DNA of 64,000 nucleotides from Aromatoleum buckelii (GTDB lineage: Bacteria > Pseudomonadota > Gammaproteobacteria > Burkholderiales > Rhodocyclaceae): positions 1,054,001 through 1,118,000 of the forward strand of contig NZ_WTVH02000010.1 in NCBI RefSeq assembly GCF_012910785.2, read 5' to 3'. Numbering within the stretch: position 1 is the first letter of the stretch; the number at the start of each line of letters is the position of its first letter. Positions 25,730 to 31,263 of this stretch are shown here, piece by piece. The notes beneath the pieces were generated by a model. The model did no database searches. It saw only the letters and a program-made list of their open reading frames with translations, and had not been told where the DNA came from. The position numbers were made by a program, and so were the translations under genes.

Positions 25730-27049
25730 TCAGCGCATTTCGAACGCCTCCTGGTGAAACCGGACTCGCCCCATGCCCAAACCACGCAGTCCGCTGCGCA
25801 GTGCCTGGGCAAAAGCCCGTGGTCCGCAGAACCAGATTTCCGGCTGGCGCTCACCGGCGTGACGGGCATGCAGCGCTTCGGCGGTCAGCGGCCGGTCGCG
25901 GTCGGTGCTGACGACATGCAGGCGGATCGTCGGCAGCGCGGCGCACAGCGATTCGAGGCGTGCAACGAACGGGTCGTCGTCGCGCTGGCGCGTGCAATAG
26001 TAAAAGTGAGCAGCCGGGGCTTCGGCCGGCGCTTCCTGCAGCGACTCGAGCCACGCGAGAAAAGGCGTGACGCCGATGCCGCCGGCGATCCACACCTGTT
26101 CCGATTTGCGCGTGCCGCGGCGATAGTCGAAGCGGCCGTACGGTCCTTCGACCTTTACCGGCTGGCCGGCGGCGAGCCGTGCCGCCAGGCCCTGCGTATA
26201 GTCGCCCAGGGCCTTGATCTGGAACGTGATGCGCCGGTCGCCGCGGTCGGCGCAGGCGATCGTGAAGGGGTGGGCGCCTTCGACGTGATCGAACGTGACG
26301 AACGCGAACTGCCCGGGCTGATGGCCGCGCCAGCTGTCCTCGAGGTGGCAGACGACCTCCGTCAGGCCGGACGCCTGTTCGCGCACGACCTCGATATTGC
26401 CTTCGACCTGGCGCGCCCGCCCGATGCGTCCGGACAGCGAGCGCAAGCCCGAAACGGTGCCGGCGGCGATGAACAGGGCGAGCAGGGCACCGATCGCGCT
26501 CGTCCAGTAGTCGAGGGGCGCGAGGAACCCGGCGTGGATCGCGAGCATGCCGTACAGCATCGGCATCGCATGGTGCAGGTAGCGCCACAGCCGGTATGGC
26601 AGGCGCTTCCACAGCGTCAGCACGAGCATCGCGATCAGCGCGTAGATCGCCCATTCGCCGAAATCCTCGGCAACGTCGCGCATGATTTCGAGAAAGCCGC
26701 CTTCGTGCTCTTTCGGCAACCGGCCTTCGCGGCCGACCACAGACTTGATGACGCCGTCGGACATTTCGATGAGCCAGTGCAACGCAGCGAAGCTGATCGC
26801 GAGGATGCCCGACCATTTGTGCACGCGGTAGATCCGGTCCATGCCGCCCAGCGGCTGCTCGAGCCACGCCGGCCGCGTCGCCAGCACGATCGCCAGCGAC
26901 ATCAGCGAAAACGCCCACAGCCCGGTGAGGTACAACGCCTCCTGCCGCACGGCCCAGGGCAGCGAGGCCCCCTCGGCGGGGCTCGATGACGAAGTGATTG
27001 CCCAGGCGAGGGTCACGAGCGCGAGGAAGCTGGCGAGTAGAGTCTTCAT
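25730..27049 (-). CDS. ferric reductase-like cytochrome b / FAD-NAD(P)H oxidoreductase
   Basis: This 439-residue protein fuses a membrane heme domain to a ferredoxin-reductase-like domain. About six helices span residues 1-205, with histidines suited to heme b in [17 protein letters not shown] and [18 protein letters not shown]. From about 220 there is an FAD-binding barrel with HPFTIACAD, then the NAD(P) domain with [13 protein letters not shown] and a C-terminal CGP. It should carry electrons from NAD(P)H through flavin and heme across the membrane. It lies downstream of the DHC/SHP cytochrome genes and is the plausible b-type partner of that cluster. A terminator-like hairpin separates it from the PepSY gene. 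Confidence 0.85.
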
Positions 27050-27117: not shown

Positions 27118-27603
27118 TCAGACCCCCAGGCCGGGGCGGGTCAGCCGGGCGCTGGGGTCGAACTCGGAGTTACGTTCGGTGCCGCGCTCCGCCTCGCGGC
27201 CGTCCTCGCGCCGGTTGTCGCGCTCCGTGTCGCGGTCGGAGTCGCTCGTCGATCGGGCTCCGGAGTCATCGCCACGGCGCCCGTCGCGCCCCTTGCGATC
27301 GGCGCGGACGAGGTCGCCGTTCGTCGGATCGACGACGAGTTTCACCTTGCGTCCGTCGCGGTCGATGGCCTTGACTTCGTATGCGTTGTCTTCGCGTTCG
27401 ATTTCGCTGATGTCGCGATAACCTGCGGCGACGACCTTGTCGTGGATCTGCGGAATCGACAGCCAGTTGCCCCGTTCGGCGGTGCTGGCGGTGGCGGCGC
27501 TGTCGATGGGGGCGTTCTGGGCGAATGCCGGGGCGATCGTGACGCCCGTGGCGAGCAGGCCGGCGCTGAGGGCGATGGCGGTGACGAGGTGTGAAGTGCG
27601 CAT
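27118..27603 (-). CDS. exported PepSY-domain protein with charged tail
   Basis: This 161-residue protein has a signal peptide (about residues 1-29, ending APAFAQ) and a PepSY-like domain at about 45-100 (WLSIPQIHDKVVAAGYRDI, then YEVKAIDRDGRKVKLVVDP). The tail of about 60 residues is rich in Arg, Asp and Glu and probably disordered. PepSY domains are small periplasmic modules thought to inhibit or sense. A perfect AAGGAG site precedes ATG 27603. One of two copies of a 38-bp operator-like sequence lies 70 bp upstream, so it is probably controlled by the adjacent two-component system. Confidence 0.8.
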   Translation of the reverse strand: MRTSHLVTAIALSAGLLATGVTIAPAFAQNAPIDSAATASTAERGNWLSIPQIHDKVVAAGYRDISEIEREDNAYEVKAIDRDGRKVKLVVDPTNGDLVRADRKGRDGRRGDDSGARSTSDSDRDTERDNRREDGREAERGTERNSEFDPSARLTRPGLGV

Positions 27604-27673
27604 GGTTGGATCTCCTTGTGTTTCTCGGTTGTCGGTCGGGGTGTGACCGTGACGTCATTGTGCGAGGGGGGTG

Positions 27674-27711
27674 CTGAACGAAGCCTGAAGCGCGTGTTCA
27701 TGCTGCATTCA
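27674..27711. promoter_or_regulatory. operator-like site A (response-regulator box pair)
   Basis: CTGAA occurs at 27674 and 27685, and TTCA at 27697 and 27708, each pair with an 11-bp period and seven bases between the two pairs. The geometry, CTGAA-N6-CTGAA-N7-TTCA-N7-TTCA, is repeated exactly at 28794-28831. The 11-bp period is typical of tandem OmpR-family binding sites. It lies 70 bp before the PepSY start. Confidence 0.65.
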
Positions 27712-27726
27712 TCGTCCGGGCATTGG

Positions 27727-28221
27727 TCAGTCGTCCTCGAAATAGCCGTCGTTGGCGTCCACGTGGCATGCGGGACAGTTGGCCTTCGAGCCGACGTCCT
27801 TGTGCTGCCATTCGCTGCGGGATACCTCGTCATGCTCGCGGACCCATTTCGGCAGTTCGGTGATGCGCTGCGGAGAAGCCCCCGCCGGCACGCCTTTCAT
27901 CAGCTTGCGTCCGTAGCGGCGCCCACCGGCGTCGGCGGCGTTATCGACGAGATAGCGTGTGACATGAGCGGCGGTCTGGGGGTCGAGGCTGGCGTTGTCA
28001 CCGAAATGGTCGTCGAGCTCGACCATCATGCGTTGCCAGGATGCGGCCGGCAGCATCGCCGGCGGAAACGCCATGTGACAGCTGCCGCATTCGTCGACAG
28101 TGGGTTTGTCCTTGACGGGCGGGAAATAATCGTCGCCGCCGGCACGGGCCTTGGTCAGCACCGCGGCGGTCAGGCCGATGACGAGCAGGCCGGCGACGAC
28201 CGAACGTATGGGAATGTTCAT
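27727..28221 (-). CDS. diheme cytochrome c (DHC family)
   Basis: This 164-residue protein has an N-terminal signal/anchor (about 1-26) and two heme c attachment sites, CGSCH at about residue 45 and CPACH near residue 150. It matches the DHC family, which in Rhodobacter and Shewanella donates electrons to the oxygen-binding cytochrome SHP. The SHP-like gene lies immediately upstream on the same strand and a cytochrome b/flavin reductase lies downstream, so the local set is complete. GGAAAGGAG precedes ATG 28221. The protein is expected in the periplasm. Confidence 0.88.
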   Translation of the reverse strand: MNIPIRSVVAGLLVIGLTAAVLTKARAGGDDYFPPVKDKPTVDECGSCHMAFPPAMLPAASWQRMMVELDDHFGDNASLDPQTAAHVTRYLVDNAADAGGRRYGRKLMKGVPAGASPQRITELPKWVREHDEVSRSEWQHKDVGSKANCPACHVDANDGYFEDD

Positions 28222-28284
28222 GTGATTCTCCTTTCCTTGCAGGCAAAACGGTTCGGAAGGGCGTGGAAGGGTGGGGAAGGGCGA

Positions 28285-28701
28285 TCACTGGTTCATCATG
28301 TAGGCGAGCCAGTCCCCTTTTTCGAGCGAGGTGCATTCGCGCCCCAGCACTTCGTCGCAGTTGCGTTTGAACCACTTTTCGACTTTCGCGGCGTCCTTGT
28401 AACGCTCCGGCGAAACTGACAGCGCCATCGGCTCGATCGGCTTGCGGGTGCGGGTGCGGCCGGCGCTGAGGGCGTCGTTTCCGTGGCAGGACGTGCAGGC
28501 CGGGGTGTCGGCCTTGCCCGTGTTGTGTTGCGTACGGTGCAGGGTTTCGCCGCGGGCGGCCGAAAACCCGGAAAAACCGGGATCGGCGGCCTTCGCCGCC
28601 GCCGCATAGCGATCGATCAGGGTTTCCCGCGGGCCGCCGATTGCCGTCGATGCGAGGCCGAAGGCGCAAAGGAAACCGATTGCATAGCGTGTGGGGGTCA
28701 T
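28285..28701 (-). CDS. SHP-like monoheme cytochrome c (DUF1924)
   Basis: This 138-residue protein has a signal peptide (about 1-22) and one heme site, CTSCH (69-73). In the known SHP (sphaeroides heme protein) the sixth heme ligand is an asparagine next to a disulfide, and it leaves when O2 or NO binds. Here Asn114 is followed directly by Cys115, with a second cysteine at 123, which fits that arrangement. ATG 28701 was chosen because it starts the signal peptide; a longer frame lacks one. It is the first gene of the SHP-DHC-PepSY unit and is divergent from the second PepSY/two-component operon. Confidence 0.8.
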   Translation of the reverse strand: MTPTRYAIGFLCAFGLASTAIGGPRETLIDRYAAAAKAADPGFSGFSAARGETLHRTQHNTGKADTPACTSCHGNDALSAGRTRTRKPIEPMALSVSPERYKDAAKVEKWFKRNCDEVLGRECTSLEKGDWLAYMMNQ

Positions 28702-28793
28702 GTTTCCATCCTTGTCGTGGCGGCACTGTGGTTCCGGGCGAGAGGGCTGGTGAGGGCCATTGCGAACCGTGACTGCAGTGTGGAAAGACCTAC

Positions 28794-28831
28794 CTGAACC
28801 GAAGCTGAAGCAGCCGTTCACGGTGCGTTCA
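28794..28831. promoter_or_regulatory. operator-like site B (response-regulator box pair)
   Basis: CTGAA occurs at 28794 and 28805, and TTCA at 28817 and 28828. Periods and gaps are the same as at 27674-27711, and several intervening bases are shared (CTGAAGC, GTTCA, TGC). It lies 68 bp before the PepSY-regulator-kinase operon and in the divergent region shared with the SHP gene, suggesting autoregulation. Confidence 0.65.
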
Positions 28832-28898
28832 TGGCGACGCTGCTAAAAACGGGGCTGCCGGAACACTCGCAGCAGATCGCTACAACCAGGAGTCACTC

Positions 28899-29234
28899 GT
28901 GCGCTTCGTTTCCCTCATTGCCGTCATCGTGTCGTCCGTCCTTGCCTTGGGACCGTCTGCTCTTCTCGCCGATGACGAGCACGACCACGATCGCGCCCGC
29001 CGCGCGGTCGAGCAGGGCGAGGTGATGCCGCTGCAACGGATACTCGACAACGTCGAGCGCGATCACCCGGGACAGGTCATCGAAGTCGAGCTCGAACAGG
29101 AAAAGGGCCGCTGGATATACGAAATCAAGGTGCTGAAGGCGGGCGGGGCGCTCGTCAAACTGGAGATCGACGCACGCGACGGAGTCGTCCTGCGTGATCG
29201 CGAACGTGCACCGGGAACAGGGGGAAAGCGCTGA
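28899..29234 (+). CDS. small exported PepSY-domain protein
   Basis: This 111-residue protein starts at GTG 28899, with AGGAG a few bases upstream. A signal peptide covers about residues 1-24 (LIAVIVSSVLALGPSALLA). The rest is a PepSY unit: GEVMPLQRILDNVERD, then WIYEIKVLKAGG and LEIDARDGVVL. It overlaps the response-regulator start (TGATG). Small PepSY proteins often precede QseBC/PhoPQ-like systems and may modulate the kinase periplasmic domain; that role is inference. Confidence 0.85.
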   Translation: MRFVSLIAVIVSSVLALGPSALLADDEHDHDRARRAVEQGEVMPLQRILDNVERDHPGQVIEVELEQEKGRWIYEIKVLKAGGALVKLEIDARDGVVLRDRERAPGTGGKR

Positions 29235-29896
29235 TGCATATCCTGGTCGTCGAAGACGAACCGACACTCGCCGCGCAGCTTGTCGAAGCGCTCGCCGCTG
29301 CCGGCTACGCGGTCGACCGTGCCGACAACGGGCGGGATGCCCACTTCATCGGCGACGTGGAGCCGCTCGATGCGGTGGTGCTCGATCTCGGCCTGCCGCT
29401 GATGGACGGGATCACGGTGCTGAAGAAATGGCGCGCGGCCGGACGCACGATGCCCGTGCTGATCCTCACCGCACGCGACAACTGGCATGAAAAAGTCGCC
29501 GGGATCGATGCCGGCGCCGACGATTACCTCACCAAGCCGTTCCACATGGAAGAGCTTCTCGCGCGCCTGCGGGCACTGATCCGGCGCGCCGGCGGCCACG
29601 CCAGCGCCGAGCTCGCCTGCGGTCCGGTATTGCTCGACACGCGCGCCGGACGCGTCAGCGTGAATGGCCAGGCGGTGAACCTGACCAGCCACGAGCTGCG
29701 CGTGCTGGATTACCTGATGCACCACCAGGGCGAGATCGTGTCGCGCAGCGATCTCACCGAGCACATCTACGCCCAGGATTTCGACCGCGATTCGAATACC
29801 ATCGAAGTCTTTATCGGTCGTCTGCGCAAGAAGCTTCCCGCCGGGATGATCGAAACAGTCAGAGGCCTCGGCTACCGCATGGTTTGTCCCGCGTGA
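29234..29896 (+). CDS. OmpR-family response regulator
   Basis: This 220-residue DNA-binding regulator has a receiver domain with the acidic pocket in VVEDEP, phospho-acceptor Asp51 in VVLDLGLPLMDG and Lys101 in DYLTKPF. The C-terminal winged helix includes LTSHELRVLDYLM, SRSDLTEHIY and DSNTIEVFIGRLRKKL. It is closest in style to QseB/PmrA/PhoP regulators. Tandem 11-bp-period repeats upstream of its own operon and of the other PepSY gene are its likely targets. Confidence 0.93.
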   Translation: MHILVVEDEPTLAAQLVEALAAAGYAVDRADNGRDAHFIGDVEPLDAVVLDLGLPLMDGITVLKKWRAAGRTMPVLILTARDNWHEKVAGIDAGADDYLTKPFHMEELLARLRALIRRAGGHASAELACGPVLLDTRAGRVSVNGQAVNLTSHELRVLDYLMHHQGEIVSRSDLTEHIYAQDFDRDSNTIEVFIGRLRKKLPAGMIETVRGLGYRMVCPA

Positions 29897-31263
29897 ACAT
29901 GTTCGGCGCACCGCCCGGTTCGCTGCGCGTGCGGCTGCTCGCGGGCAGCCTGGTGTGGATCCTCGGGACGCTGACGGTGACCGGATTCGTTCTCGCCGAT
30001 CTTTTCCGGCGCCATGCCGCGGAGCGGTTCGAAGCCGAACTGCGCATCCATCTCGACCAGCTCACCGCGAATCTCGATTTCGCCATCGACGGCACCCCGC
30101 GATTGCGCGCCGAACTGAGCGACCCGCGGCTGCAGAAGCCGTATTCCGGACTCTACTGGCAGATCGACCGCGCTGCGAACGGGGGGCAGCCCGCGGTGCT
30201 GCGTTCGCGTTCACTGTGGGACACGACGCTCCGCGTGCCCGCGGATAGCCCGGCCGACGGCGAACTCCACGTCCACCGCATCGCCGGACCGGATCGTGCC
30301 CAAGTGGTGATGATGGAGCGTGTAGTCCGCCCGGCCGCTTTCCCAGACCAGCCGCTGCGCCTTATCGTCGCCGCGGACGAGCGCGTCATGACGGACCCGG
30401 TGCGCGAGTTCGTCGGCCTGCTTGCGATCGCCCTCGGCGTGCTGGCGGCCGGTCTCGTCGCCGCGGTGGTGCTCCAGGTATCGGTCGGGCTTGCGCCGCT
30501 GCGCCGGCTGCGCAGTGCGCTCGGCGAAGTGCGCGACGGGCGCACGCGGCGCCTGAACGGCGCCTATCCGAACGAAGTGCAGCCGCTCGTCGACGAACTC
30601 AACGCGTTGCTGCAGCACGACGCCGAAGTGGTTACCCGCGCGCGTACCCAGGCAGGCAATCTCGCCCACGCCGTCAAGACGCCGCTGGCGGTGCTCGGCA
30701 ACGCTGCGGCGCGCGAGGACGGCCCGCTCGCCCGTCTCGTCTCCGAGCAGGTCGCGACCGCCCAGCGTCAGGTCGACTACCATCTGGCGCGCGCGCGCGC
30801 TGCCGCCGCGGTGCAAGTGCCCGGAATGCGCACGACAGTCCTTCCGCTGGTCGAATCGCTGGTGCGGGTGATGAAGCGCGTGCATGCGGAACGCGACCTC
30901 GAGATTGTGATCGAAGCCTGCGCCGGCGAACCCGCTTTTCGCGGCGAAGAGCAGGATTTCCAGGAAATGCTTGGAAACCTCGTCGACAACGCGTGCAAAT
31001 GGGCGCGCCGCCGTGTCGAGATCCGCGTGGCGGTCGAGCGCAGCCAGCTCGTGATCGTCGTCGACGATGACGGCCCCGGGCTTGCGGCGCCGGAACGCGA
31101 ATCCGTGTTCGGGCGCGGCGTGCGCGCCGACGAACGCACGCCCGGCTCTGGGCTCGGGTTGGCGATCGTGCGTGACCTCGCGCAACTTTATGGCGGCGAC
31201 GTGCGGCTCGACGCGGCCTCGACCGGCGGCCTGCGCGTCGTGCTCACGCTGCCGGCGGCGTAG
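29893..31263 (+). CDS. PhoQ-like sensor histidine kinase
   Basis: This 456-residue membrane kinase is cognate to the preceding regulator. It has a first helix at about 15-37, a periplasmic domain to about 175, a second helix (LLAIALGVLAAGLVAAVVL) and a HAMP-like linker. The H box is unusual, NLAHAVKTPLAVL with His259, and resembles the PhoQ type rather than the common HELRTPL. The N box is NLVDNACKWA (from Asn362), with G boxes DDGPGL and GSGLGLAI. GTG 29893 overlaps the regulator stop; ATG 29899 is an equally possible start. The signal sensed is unknown. Confidence 0.9.
   Translation: MNMFGAPPGSLRVRLLAGSLVWILGTLTVTGFVLADLFRRHAAERFEAELRIHLDQLTANLDFAIDGTPRLRAELSDPRLQKPYSGLYWQIDRAANGGQPAVLRSRSLWDTTLRVPADSPADGELHVHRIAGPDRAQVVMMERVVRPAAFPDQPLRLIVAADERVMTDPVREFVGLLAIALGVLAAGLVAAVVLQVSVGLAPLRRLRSALGEVRDGRTRRLNGAYPNEVQPLVDELNALLQHDAEVVTRARTQAGNLAHAVKTPLAVLGNAAAREDGPLARLVSEQVATAQRQVDYHLARARAAAAVQVPGMRTTVLPLVESLVRVMKRVHAERDLEIVIEACAGEPAFRGEEQDFQEMLGNLVDNACKWARRRVEIRVAVERSQLVIVVDDDGPGLAAPERESVFGRGVRADERTPGSGLGLAIVRDLAQLYGGDVRLDAASTGGLRVVLTLPAA

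Follow-up and report, generated by a model that had tools for sequence, protein, structure and literature searches.

To decide which protein would read a symmetric element that recurs in two intergenic regions of Aromatoleum buckelii, and which of the adjoining promoters it would serve, the stretch of 64,000 nucleotides presented above (the window) was analyzed together with genomes of relatives (Table 1). The element adjoins the gene for SHP, a haem protein that binds oxygen; neither its role nor its signal is settled, and its regulators were inferred from gene order in a 2010 survey (PMC2909971). A first-pass annotation had reported CTGAA-N6-CTGAA-N7-TTCA-N7-TTCA at 27674-27711 and 28794-28831, and both copies proved exact and identically spaced. 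Judged from its sequence, the element is a real conserved operator in which an ordinary unit, a FeuP-type box, is set in an unusual, back-to-back arrangement and tied to an SK1 kinase and redox genes.

Two exact copies of a rare symmetric element

The symmetric core, TGAA-N7-TGAA-N7-TTCA-N7-TTCA, occupies 37 bp at 27675-27711 and 28795-28831, with every step measuring 11 bp. The size of 38 bp given earlier overstates this core, while its leading C is indeed conserved, on one face only: it is the G of TTCAG in 29/33 sites read from the SHP side and 22/22 read from the PepSY2 side, and is found in 23/42 on the PepSY1 side. In the second CTGAA, the C lacks such conservation (33/70). Likewise, the reported gap of 70 bp between site and start codon was correct for PepSY2 (ATG at 27603), and that for PepSY1 is 67 bp (GTG at 28899) rather than 68. 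At site 1, the half closer to PepSY2 faces this gene, leftwards; the position is retained in the close relatives G100 and G137, and sites lie before PepSY2 in other genera too. The opposed box of site 2 was present 7 bp away, with at most one mismatch, at 52 of 59 family loci.

With up to three mismatches allowed, a scan of the window returned four matches (the two sites, each counted on both strands), compared with a mean of 0.02 in 100 dinucleotide shuffles, none of which reached four. The same search of the whole genome (4.16 Mb) gave nine matches, namely three places on both strands and three copies of one repeated sequence, each with three mismatches, and a reversed control pattern gave none. 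The first-pass annotation had named abundance throughout the genome and lack of conservation as objections to its reading; the pattern is rare across the 4.16 Mb and is kept in the orthologous regions of relatives. Mobile-element ends or a genome-wide repeat were rejected as an origin, only three places being found besides the repeat copies. The third place is an exact double site (G000:C2:165364-165400; L010 4865-4901, G000 being the A. buckelii genome) before an EAL-domain gene (PF00563), flanked by this gene and by a patatin-like gene (label by eye), and in G100 and G137 the EAL gene is also adjoined by an exact double site. The double site before an EAL gene suggests a cyclic-di-GMP link.

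Table 1. Boxes, predicted promoter elements and genes at the locus (window coordinates)
Feature	Position	Strand	Remark
Site 1, double box	27675..27711	.	Exact match; between DHC stop codon and PepSY2
Site 2, double box	28795..28831	.	Exact match; between divergent SHP and PepSY1 operons
Predicted −10, PepSY2 promoter (CACAAT)	27657..27662	-	12 bp from site 1
Predicted −10, SHP-DHC promoter (CACACT)	28777..28782	-	12 bp from site 2
Predicted −10, PepSY1-regulator-kinase promoter (TAAAAA)	28844..28849	+	12 bp from site 2
Conserved TCACGGTC past PepSY2 −10, at expected transcription start	27645..27652	-	Columns 23-30 after site
TCACGGTT at predicted SHP transcription start	28765-28772	-	Counterpart of TCACGGTC
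Ferric-reductase-like flavocytochrome, behind PepSY2	25730..27049	-	Ferric_reduct, FAD- and NAD-binding domains
PepSY2 (PepSY_2 protein), behind site 1	27118..27603	-	PF13670, E 6e-14
Dihaem cytochrome c (DHC)	27727..28221	-	PF09626, E 1.1e-42
SHP-like c-type haem protein (DUF1924)	28285..28704	-	PF09086, E 1.8e-37
PepSY1, small PepSY protein, first in regulator operon	28899..29234	+	PF03413, E 3.5e-12
OmpR/PhoB-type response regulator, likely box ligand	29234..29896	+	PF00072 and PF00486
Histidine kinase (ATPase domain by Pfam)	29893..31263	+	SK1 signatures SGLYWQ, RSRSLWD

Gene order (PepSY1-regulator-kinase) and Pfam domains agree with the earlier statement that the operon following site 2 encodes the regulator; there, PepSY1 takes an Orf1- or FeuN-like position. 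The regulator and its counterpart in Aromatoleum anaerobium (L178, Rhodocyclaceae) share 98% sequence identity; assignment to PhoP or PmrA was not supported, the scores being 195 bits (cut-off 336) and 207 bits (cut-off 330), respectively, and the half-site being TTCA. The two SK1 signatures lie in the kinase sensor, SGLYWQ at residue 85 and RSRSLWD at residue 104, and PhoQ was the top NCBIfam score of the kinase, yet far under its cut-off. DUF1924 is presumably the SHP family. For the flavocytochrome, no other cytochrome b family was found by Pfam at E 0.001.

One box and a −10-like hexamer as the probable unit

The first-pass annotation had treated the 38-bp element as the elementary unit; the unit is instead one half, TTCA-N7-TTCA with a −10 hexamer 12 bp downstream, and the tandem OmpR-type half-sites with an 11-bp period that it had proposed appear well founded on the sequence. 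When the flanks of sites retrieved by the full double pattern were aligned by site, a −10-like hexamer was seen to begin at the 13th base past the outer TTCA, with A at its position 2 in 41/42 PepSY1-oriented, 31/33 SHP-oriented and 22/22 PepSY2-oriented sequences. Position 1 is T in 39/42 PepSY1-oriented sites and C in 30/33 on the SHP side and 16/22 on the PepSY2 side, hexamers with this C being weak matches to TATAAT. The faces differ, with −10s that begin with TA on the PepSY1 face and boxes closed by TTCAG on the other two.

Of the 202 sides of 101 distinct full sites, 131 have a hexamer that obeys the rule [TC]A---T or [TC]A-AA- at an offset of precisely 12 bp, compared with an average of 3.8 at offsets outside 11-13. 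Both sides carry one at 44 sites, one side at 43 and neither at 14, the EAL site among them; several of these 14 have near forms, AAGAAT (the EAL site), GAGAAT or GACAAT, or a hexamer one base nearer. Offset 23 gives a further, smaller peak (34 sides), for which there is only a partial explanation. TTGACA is absent from the −35 place, where 106 of 131 hexamers match at zero or one of six positions (∼77 expected from shuffling); assuming a 17-bp spacer, the −35 would coincide with the six bases separating the two half-sites. At the locus itself, no −10 was found on the DHC side of site 1, which reads TGGTCA. The earlier suggestion that site 2 could also act on the divergent SHP gene gains support from CACACT on the SHP side at the same 12-bp distance. 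The columns of TCACGGTC are each conserved in 15 to 20 of 22 PepSY2-oriented sequences and are kept across genera; this motif and TCACGGTT are possibly an initial-transcribed or second regulatory element.

The box accompanies the regulator across genomes

Exact full sites were present in 49 of 199 family genomes, and the reversed control in none. A regulator ortholog of at least 63% identity was found in 46 of the 49 site-bearing genomes vs 12 of the 150 genomes without an exact site (Fisher p 3.6e-30, with no correction for phylogeny). Among site-bearing genomes, G015 and G076 have a diverged regulator (53% and 49%) directly beside the site, and the best regulator of G103 among the matches listed has 53% identity. 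Of the 12 genomes with the regulator and without an exact site, six have a double site with one mismatch, two a single box and three separated boxes; the twelfth is unreadable, its contig beginning at the gene. In an order-wide sample of 300 genomes, including A. buckelii and eight other family members, a slightly stricter pattern occurred in seven, A. buckelii among them.

Two sets of loci were picked by regulator rather than by motif. Upstream of the family orthologs (60 places listed, 59 with readable upstream DNA), TTCA-N7-TTCA was exact at 52 of 59, with one mismatch at six and two mismatches at one. In the named set, the best 80 of 584 candidates less one with too little upstream DNA, the repeat was exact at 75 of 79 loci, Rhizobium and Mesorhizobium included; boxes of Rhizobiales, many of them in this set, often read ATTCATTTGCCATTCA or GTTCATTTCACGTTCA. 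The window regulator and that of the Rhizobium leguminosarum locus L255 are reciprocal best matches (67% identity), the latter gene having the same box, and we take the L255 regulator to be FeuP; in a profile search, no PepSY domain was detected in the small proteins encoded at L255 and L226. One mismatch in this 8-base box would be found by chance in about one-third of 900-bp regions (an estimate), and one-mismatch boxes are thus weak evidence alone, so that the main claim rests on the exact counts. Moreover, among 14 more distant paralogs of the regulator (49-54% identity), seven have an exact box upstream, in two cases as part of a double box, and related regulators may therefore share the box, although this set is reported here and not relied on.

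Single, separated and back-to-back boxes

Most of the Rhizobiales loci have a single box, as do further promoters in this genus. Three relatives have their boxes separated, by 36 bp (L113), 38 bp (L114) and 26 bp (L115), with a −10-like hexamer still 12 bp from each box: the left-hand one is CAGACT throughout, and the right-hand ones are CACACT, CACGCT and CATCCT, respectively. The divergent gene of L113 is of the BOF family (YgiW-like; Pfam, L113 alone) and sits in the usual place of SHP, and those of L114 and L115 resemble it by eye. Single, separated and back-to-back boxes form a natural series in which the combined action of activator sites at divergent promoters could be studied.

Box type and divergent partner were compared at 140 loci (59 family, 79 named, L032 and L033), leaving out two loci too close to an end and three in which no box was clear (one of these has SHP). 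A divergent SHP, DHC or PepSY2 gene accompanied 73 of 78 double-box loci vs 0 of 57 with single or spaced boxes, a contrast confounded with that between beta- and alphaproteobacteria. The double boxes without such a partner face a divergent PepSY_2, EF-hand or 17-kDa-antigen-like gene (L208, L217 and L247) or no recognised partner (L111 and L225). A far-side hexamer beginning with [TC]A was present at 61 of 77 loci with an opposed box vs 5 of 58 without. On a tree of 151 regulators, double and single boxes cluster strongly (10 changes each, vs 50.4 and 48.2 in shuffles), and lineage is thus confounded with gene order. A known divergent partner is also missing from seven betaproteobacterial loci, four with a single box (L066, L109, L112 and L196) and the three spaced ones.

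PepSY2 promoters complicate this correspondence. Among 36 PepSY2 upstream regions, 15 have both boxes and no recognised divergent gene (a same-strand gene in nine, an unrecognised one in six), and the far −10 place is without [TC]A in every one of these, whereas 11 of 12 regions with a divergent gene have it; nine of the 36 lack one or both boxes. Many PepSY2 loci were retrieved by the full pattern, and the share of one-way double sites is thus biased; such sites before PepSY2 nevertheless occur in several genera. Since the opposed box of site 1 is kept without a facing promoter, one box for each promoter is not the whole explanation. One-sided double sites also face the gene of a 45-aa membrane peptide and the EAL gene with its off-rule hexamer AAGAAT.

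Several further arrangements were observed. At L040, L084, L085 and L087, double sites face a gene for a 45-aa hydrophobic peptide, with GAGAAT or CAGTAT on that side; a cytochrome c peroxidase was rejected as the target at L084, the −10-like hexamer facing the peptide gene instead. G421 and G479, from another family of the order, have four and two double sites per genome, and those of L147, L148, L151, L152, L155 and L156 precede small hydrophobic-protein genes with the hexamer one base nearer.

A putative regulon wider than the locus

The two sites had been said to define a local regulon, a description too narrow for a genome with a third double site and five single boxes elsewhere. A first half-box pattern (G in both half-sites, A and T of the −10 fixed), searched in 17 genomes of the genus, was discarded after missing site 2, and a looser single-box pattern was then run on G000, G100 and G137. 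In G000 it found six places, compared with none for the control, and these were site 2, two PepSY_2 genes, one flavocytochrome gene and two genes of unknown family, one of which is followed by a flavocytochrome gene, so that four of the five single boxes lead to PepSY or flavocytochrome genes. Each of the three genomes has three flavocytochrome matches (E 1e-80 or better), all nine with a box upstream. Across the family, within 1.3 kb upstream of 90 flavocytochrome loci (the first 91 in rank less one, of 110 listed), a double box was present at 30, a single box at 15 and neither at 45, and the control repeat ACTT-N7-ACTT at 0 of 90. The G100 region G100:C1:1906718-1919664 (L160-L174) holds six single boxes in 13 kb, near PepSY-like and flavocytochrome genes and also near apparent ApbE-like genes (label by eye). 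Overall, SHP, PepSY and flavocytochrome genes are linked through the box to a single sensor system, with predictions at the level of single bases for boxes, −10s and targets.

Proposed mechanism and alternatives

Set beside the observed sequence, conservation and spacing of the boxes, their −10-like hexamers and their association with the regulator and divergent targets, the mechanism that we infer covers regulator binding, promoter activation, the signal and PepSY1 function. With considerable confidence, we propose that the sites are back-to-back boxes for the regulator encoded at 29234-29896, which would activate divergent and one-way promoters in the manner of PhoP. Each site would consist of two OmpR-type boxes, one TTCA-N7-TTCA direct repeat binding a head-to-tail regulator dimer, and the box would replace the −35 element, its last half-site lying 12 bp before the −10 hexamer. 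From this position, the regulator in its phosphorylated form would bring RNA polymerase to the promoter. The pair of boxes at 28795-28831 would serve the PepSY1-regulator-kinase operon (autoregulation) and the divergent SHP-DHC operon; at 27675-27711, one box would serve PepSY2-flavocytochrome, the opposed box, which has no −10, being accessory or inherited. The kinase fits the SK1 type and is probably modulated by PepSY1 on the periplasmic side, by analogy with FeuN and DbfQ.

The far box of one-way sites may be an enhancer or a remnant. A tentative extension, which we consider possible while leaning against it, is that two dimers meet in the middle of the site on one DNA face and bind cooperatively, both promoters firing where both have a −10 and the reversed box elsewhere acting as an enhancer 34 nt before the −10 (PepSY2, the 45-aa peptide and EAL). 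If such a cooperative two-way module exists, it would have spread with SHP and flavocytochrome operons. The four half-sites at 11-bp steps, which place them on one DNA face, would also suit an indivisible 37-bp operator bound by a regulator tetramer and needing both boxes even in one direction, and one-way promoters (PepSY2, the 45-aa peptide and probably EAL) do keep both boxes with a hexamer on one side. We regard this as unlikely: a lone box with its −10-like hexamer is the norm at the Rhizobiales loci and is found at five promoters of A. buckelii itself, boxes 26-38 bp apart exist, and the one-way double sites, mostly retrieved by the full pattern, are a biased sample.

Departures from the activator model altogether are less probable still. 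The overlap of box and −35 region could mean that the regulator represses, shutting these promoters by occupying that region, but the −35 consensus is absent, leaving RNA polymerase nothing to use alone, and the geometry is that of PhoP-activated promoters (PMC3335776); repression thus seems improbable. Slightly more so is the notion that another regulator binds the sites and the adjoining two-component system is unrelated. Eleven regulator genes of the OmpR type match in the genome, which leaves candidates, whereas from beta- to alphaproteobacteria the box lies upstream of this very regulator, 46 of 49 genomes with exact sites carry it, as described above, and none of the five single boxes is just upstream of another regulator gene among the matches listed. 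The near-palindrome also raised the idea of an RNA hairpin or attenuator, which we reject almost entirely: the spacer bases are barely complementary beyond column composition (top excesses, 52 vs 40 and 42 vs 33; n = 101), three spacer pairs fall far under expectation, and the element, lying upstream of the predicted −10s, should be absent from transcripts.

Comparison with known systems

Several elements of the activator model have counterparts among described OmpR-family systems. The PhoP box of Salmonella is a direct repeat with an 11-bp period that takes the −35 place and works 12 nt upstream of what is, by context, the −10 (PMC3335776), so that repeat period, place and the ∼12-nt geometry are shared with the boxes here; the half-site differs, being (T/G)GTTTA rather than TTCA. 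Two-box PhoP promoters are common, also with a reversed box, and reverse boxes lie 30-58 nt upstream of the −10, a range that includes the 34 nt of the reversed far box here; a symmetric back-to-back pair does not appear in the available text of that study (PMC3335776). Similarly, the activator BqsR of Pseudomonas has the operator TTAAG-N6-TTAAG, a pentamer repeat with the same 11-bp period and a different half-site sequence (PMC4682146). A literature search, with most subscription journals outside its scope, found no description of the back-to-back form or of a symmetric OmpR-family operator.

A close counterpart of the box is the candidate site of FeuP. In Sinorhizobium meliloti, TTCA-N7-TTCA (Motif 3) precedes 12 genes, five of them FeuP dependent, and was proposed as the FeuP site; repeat and spacing of this candidate box are the same as here (PMC3616915). 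Two traits of a FeuP-type box recur in the window: the repeat lies upstream of a predicted start at both halves of both sites, with a −10 at 12 bp on three of four faces, and an operon of small periplasmic protein, regulator and kinase (PepSY1-regulator-kinase) follows site 2. Unlike the S. meliloti box, those here stand back to back in pairs at divergent promoters, and whereas the FeuP regulon includes the cyclic-glucan exporter gene ndvA, the targets here are PepSY, SHP-DHC and flavocytochrome genes (PMC3616915). As for the small protein, FeuN acts as a negative regulator of FeuQ, to which it binds (as related in PMC12486126), and in the DbfQRS module a PepSY protein, DbfQ, is encoded beside a two-component system, as here, and interacts with DbfS (PMC12714742).

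The gene neighborhood, in turn, matches that described by Meyer et al. in 2010, who found SHP operons accompanied by Orf1, a regulator and an SK1 kinase, the last recognised by variants of SGVYWQ and RSRSLWD, and who suggested a divergent promoter from gene order for two Rhodospirillaceae (PMC2909971). Like those operons, the locus combines SHP and DHC with a periplasmic accessory protein, a regulator and an SK1 kinase; the window kinase carries both signatures, and PepSY1-regulator-kinase is divergent from SHP-DHC. Orf1, we infer, is a PepSY protein. The membrane partner in the surveyed operons is a dihaem cytochrome b, in place of which a ferric-reductase-like flavocytochrome occurs here, and the available text of the survey gives no operator for the SK1-Orf1 SHP operons (PMC2909971). 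The box itself was thus already a candidate, while the link between FeuP box and SK1-SHP systems, the back-to-back form and the wider regulon look new, and the box joins two literatures that have been separate, on FeuP in rhizobia and on SK1 at SHP operons.
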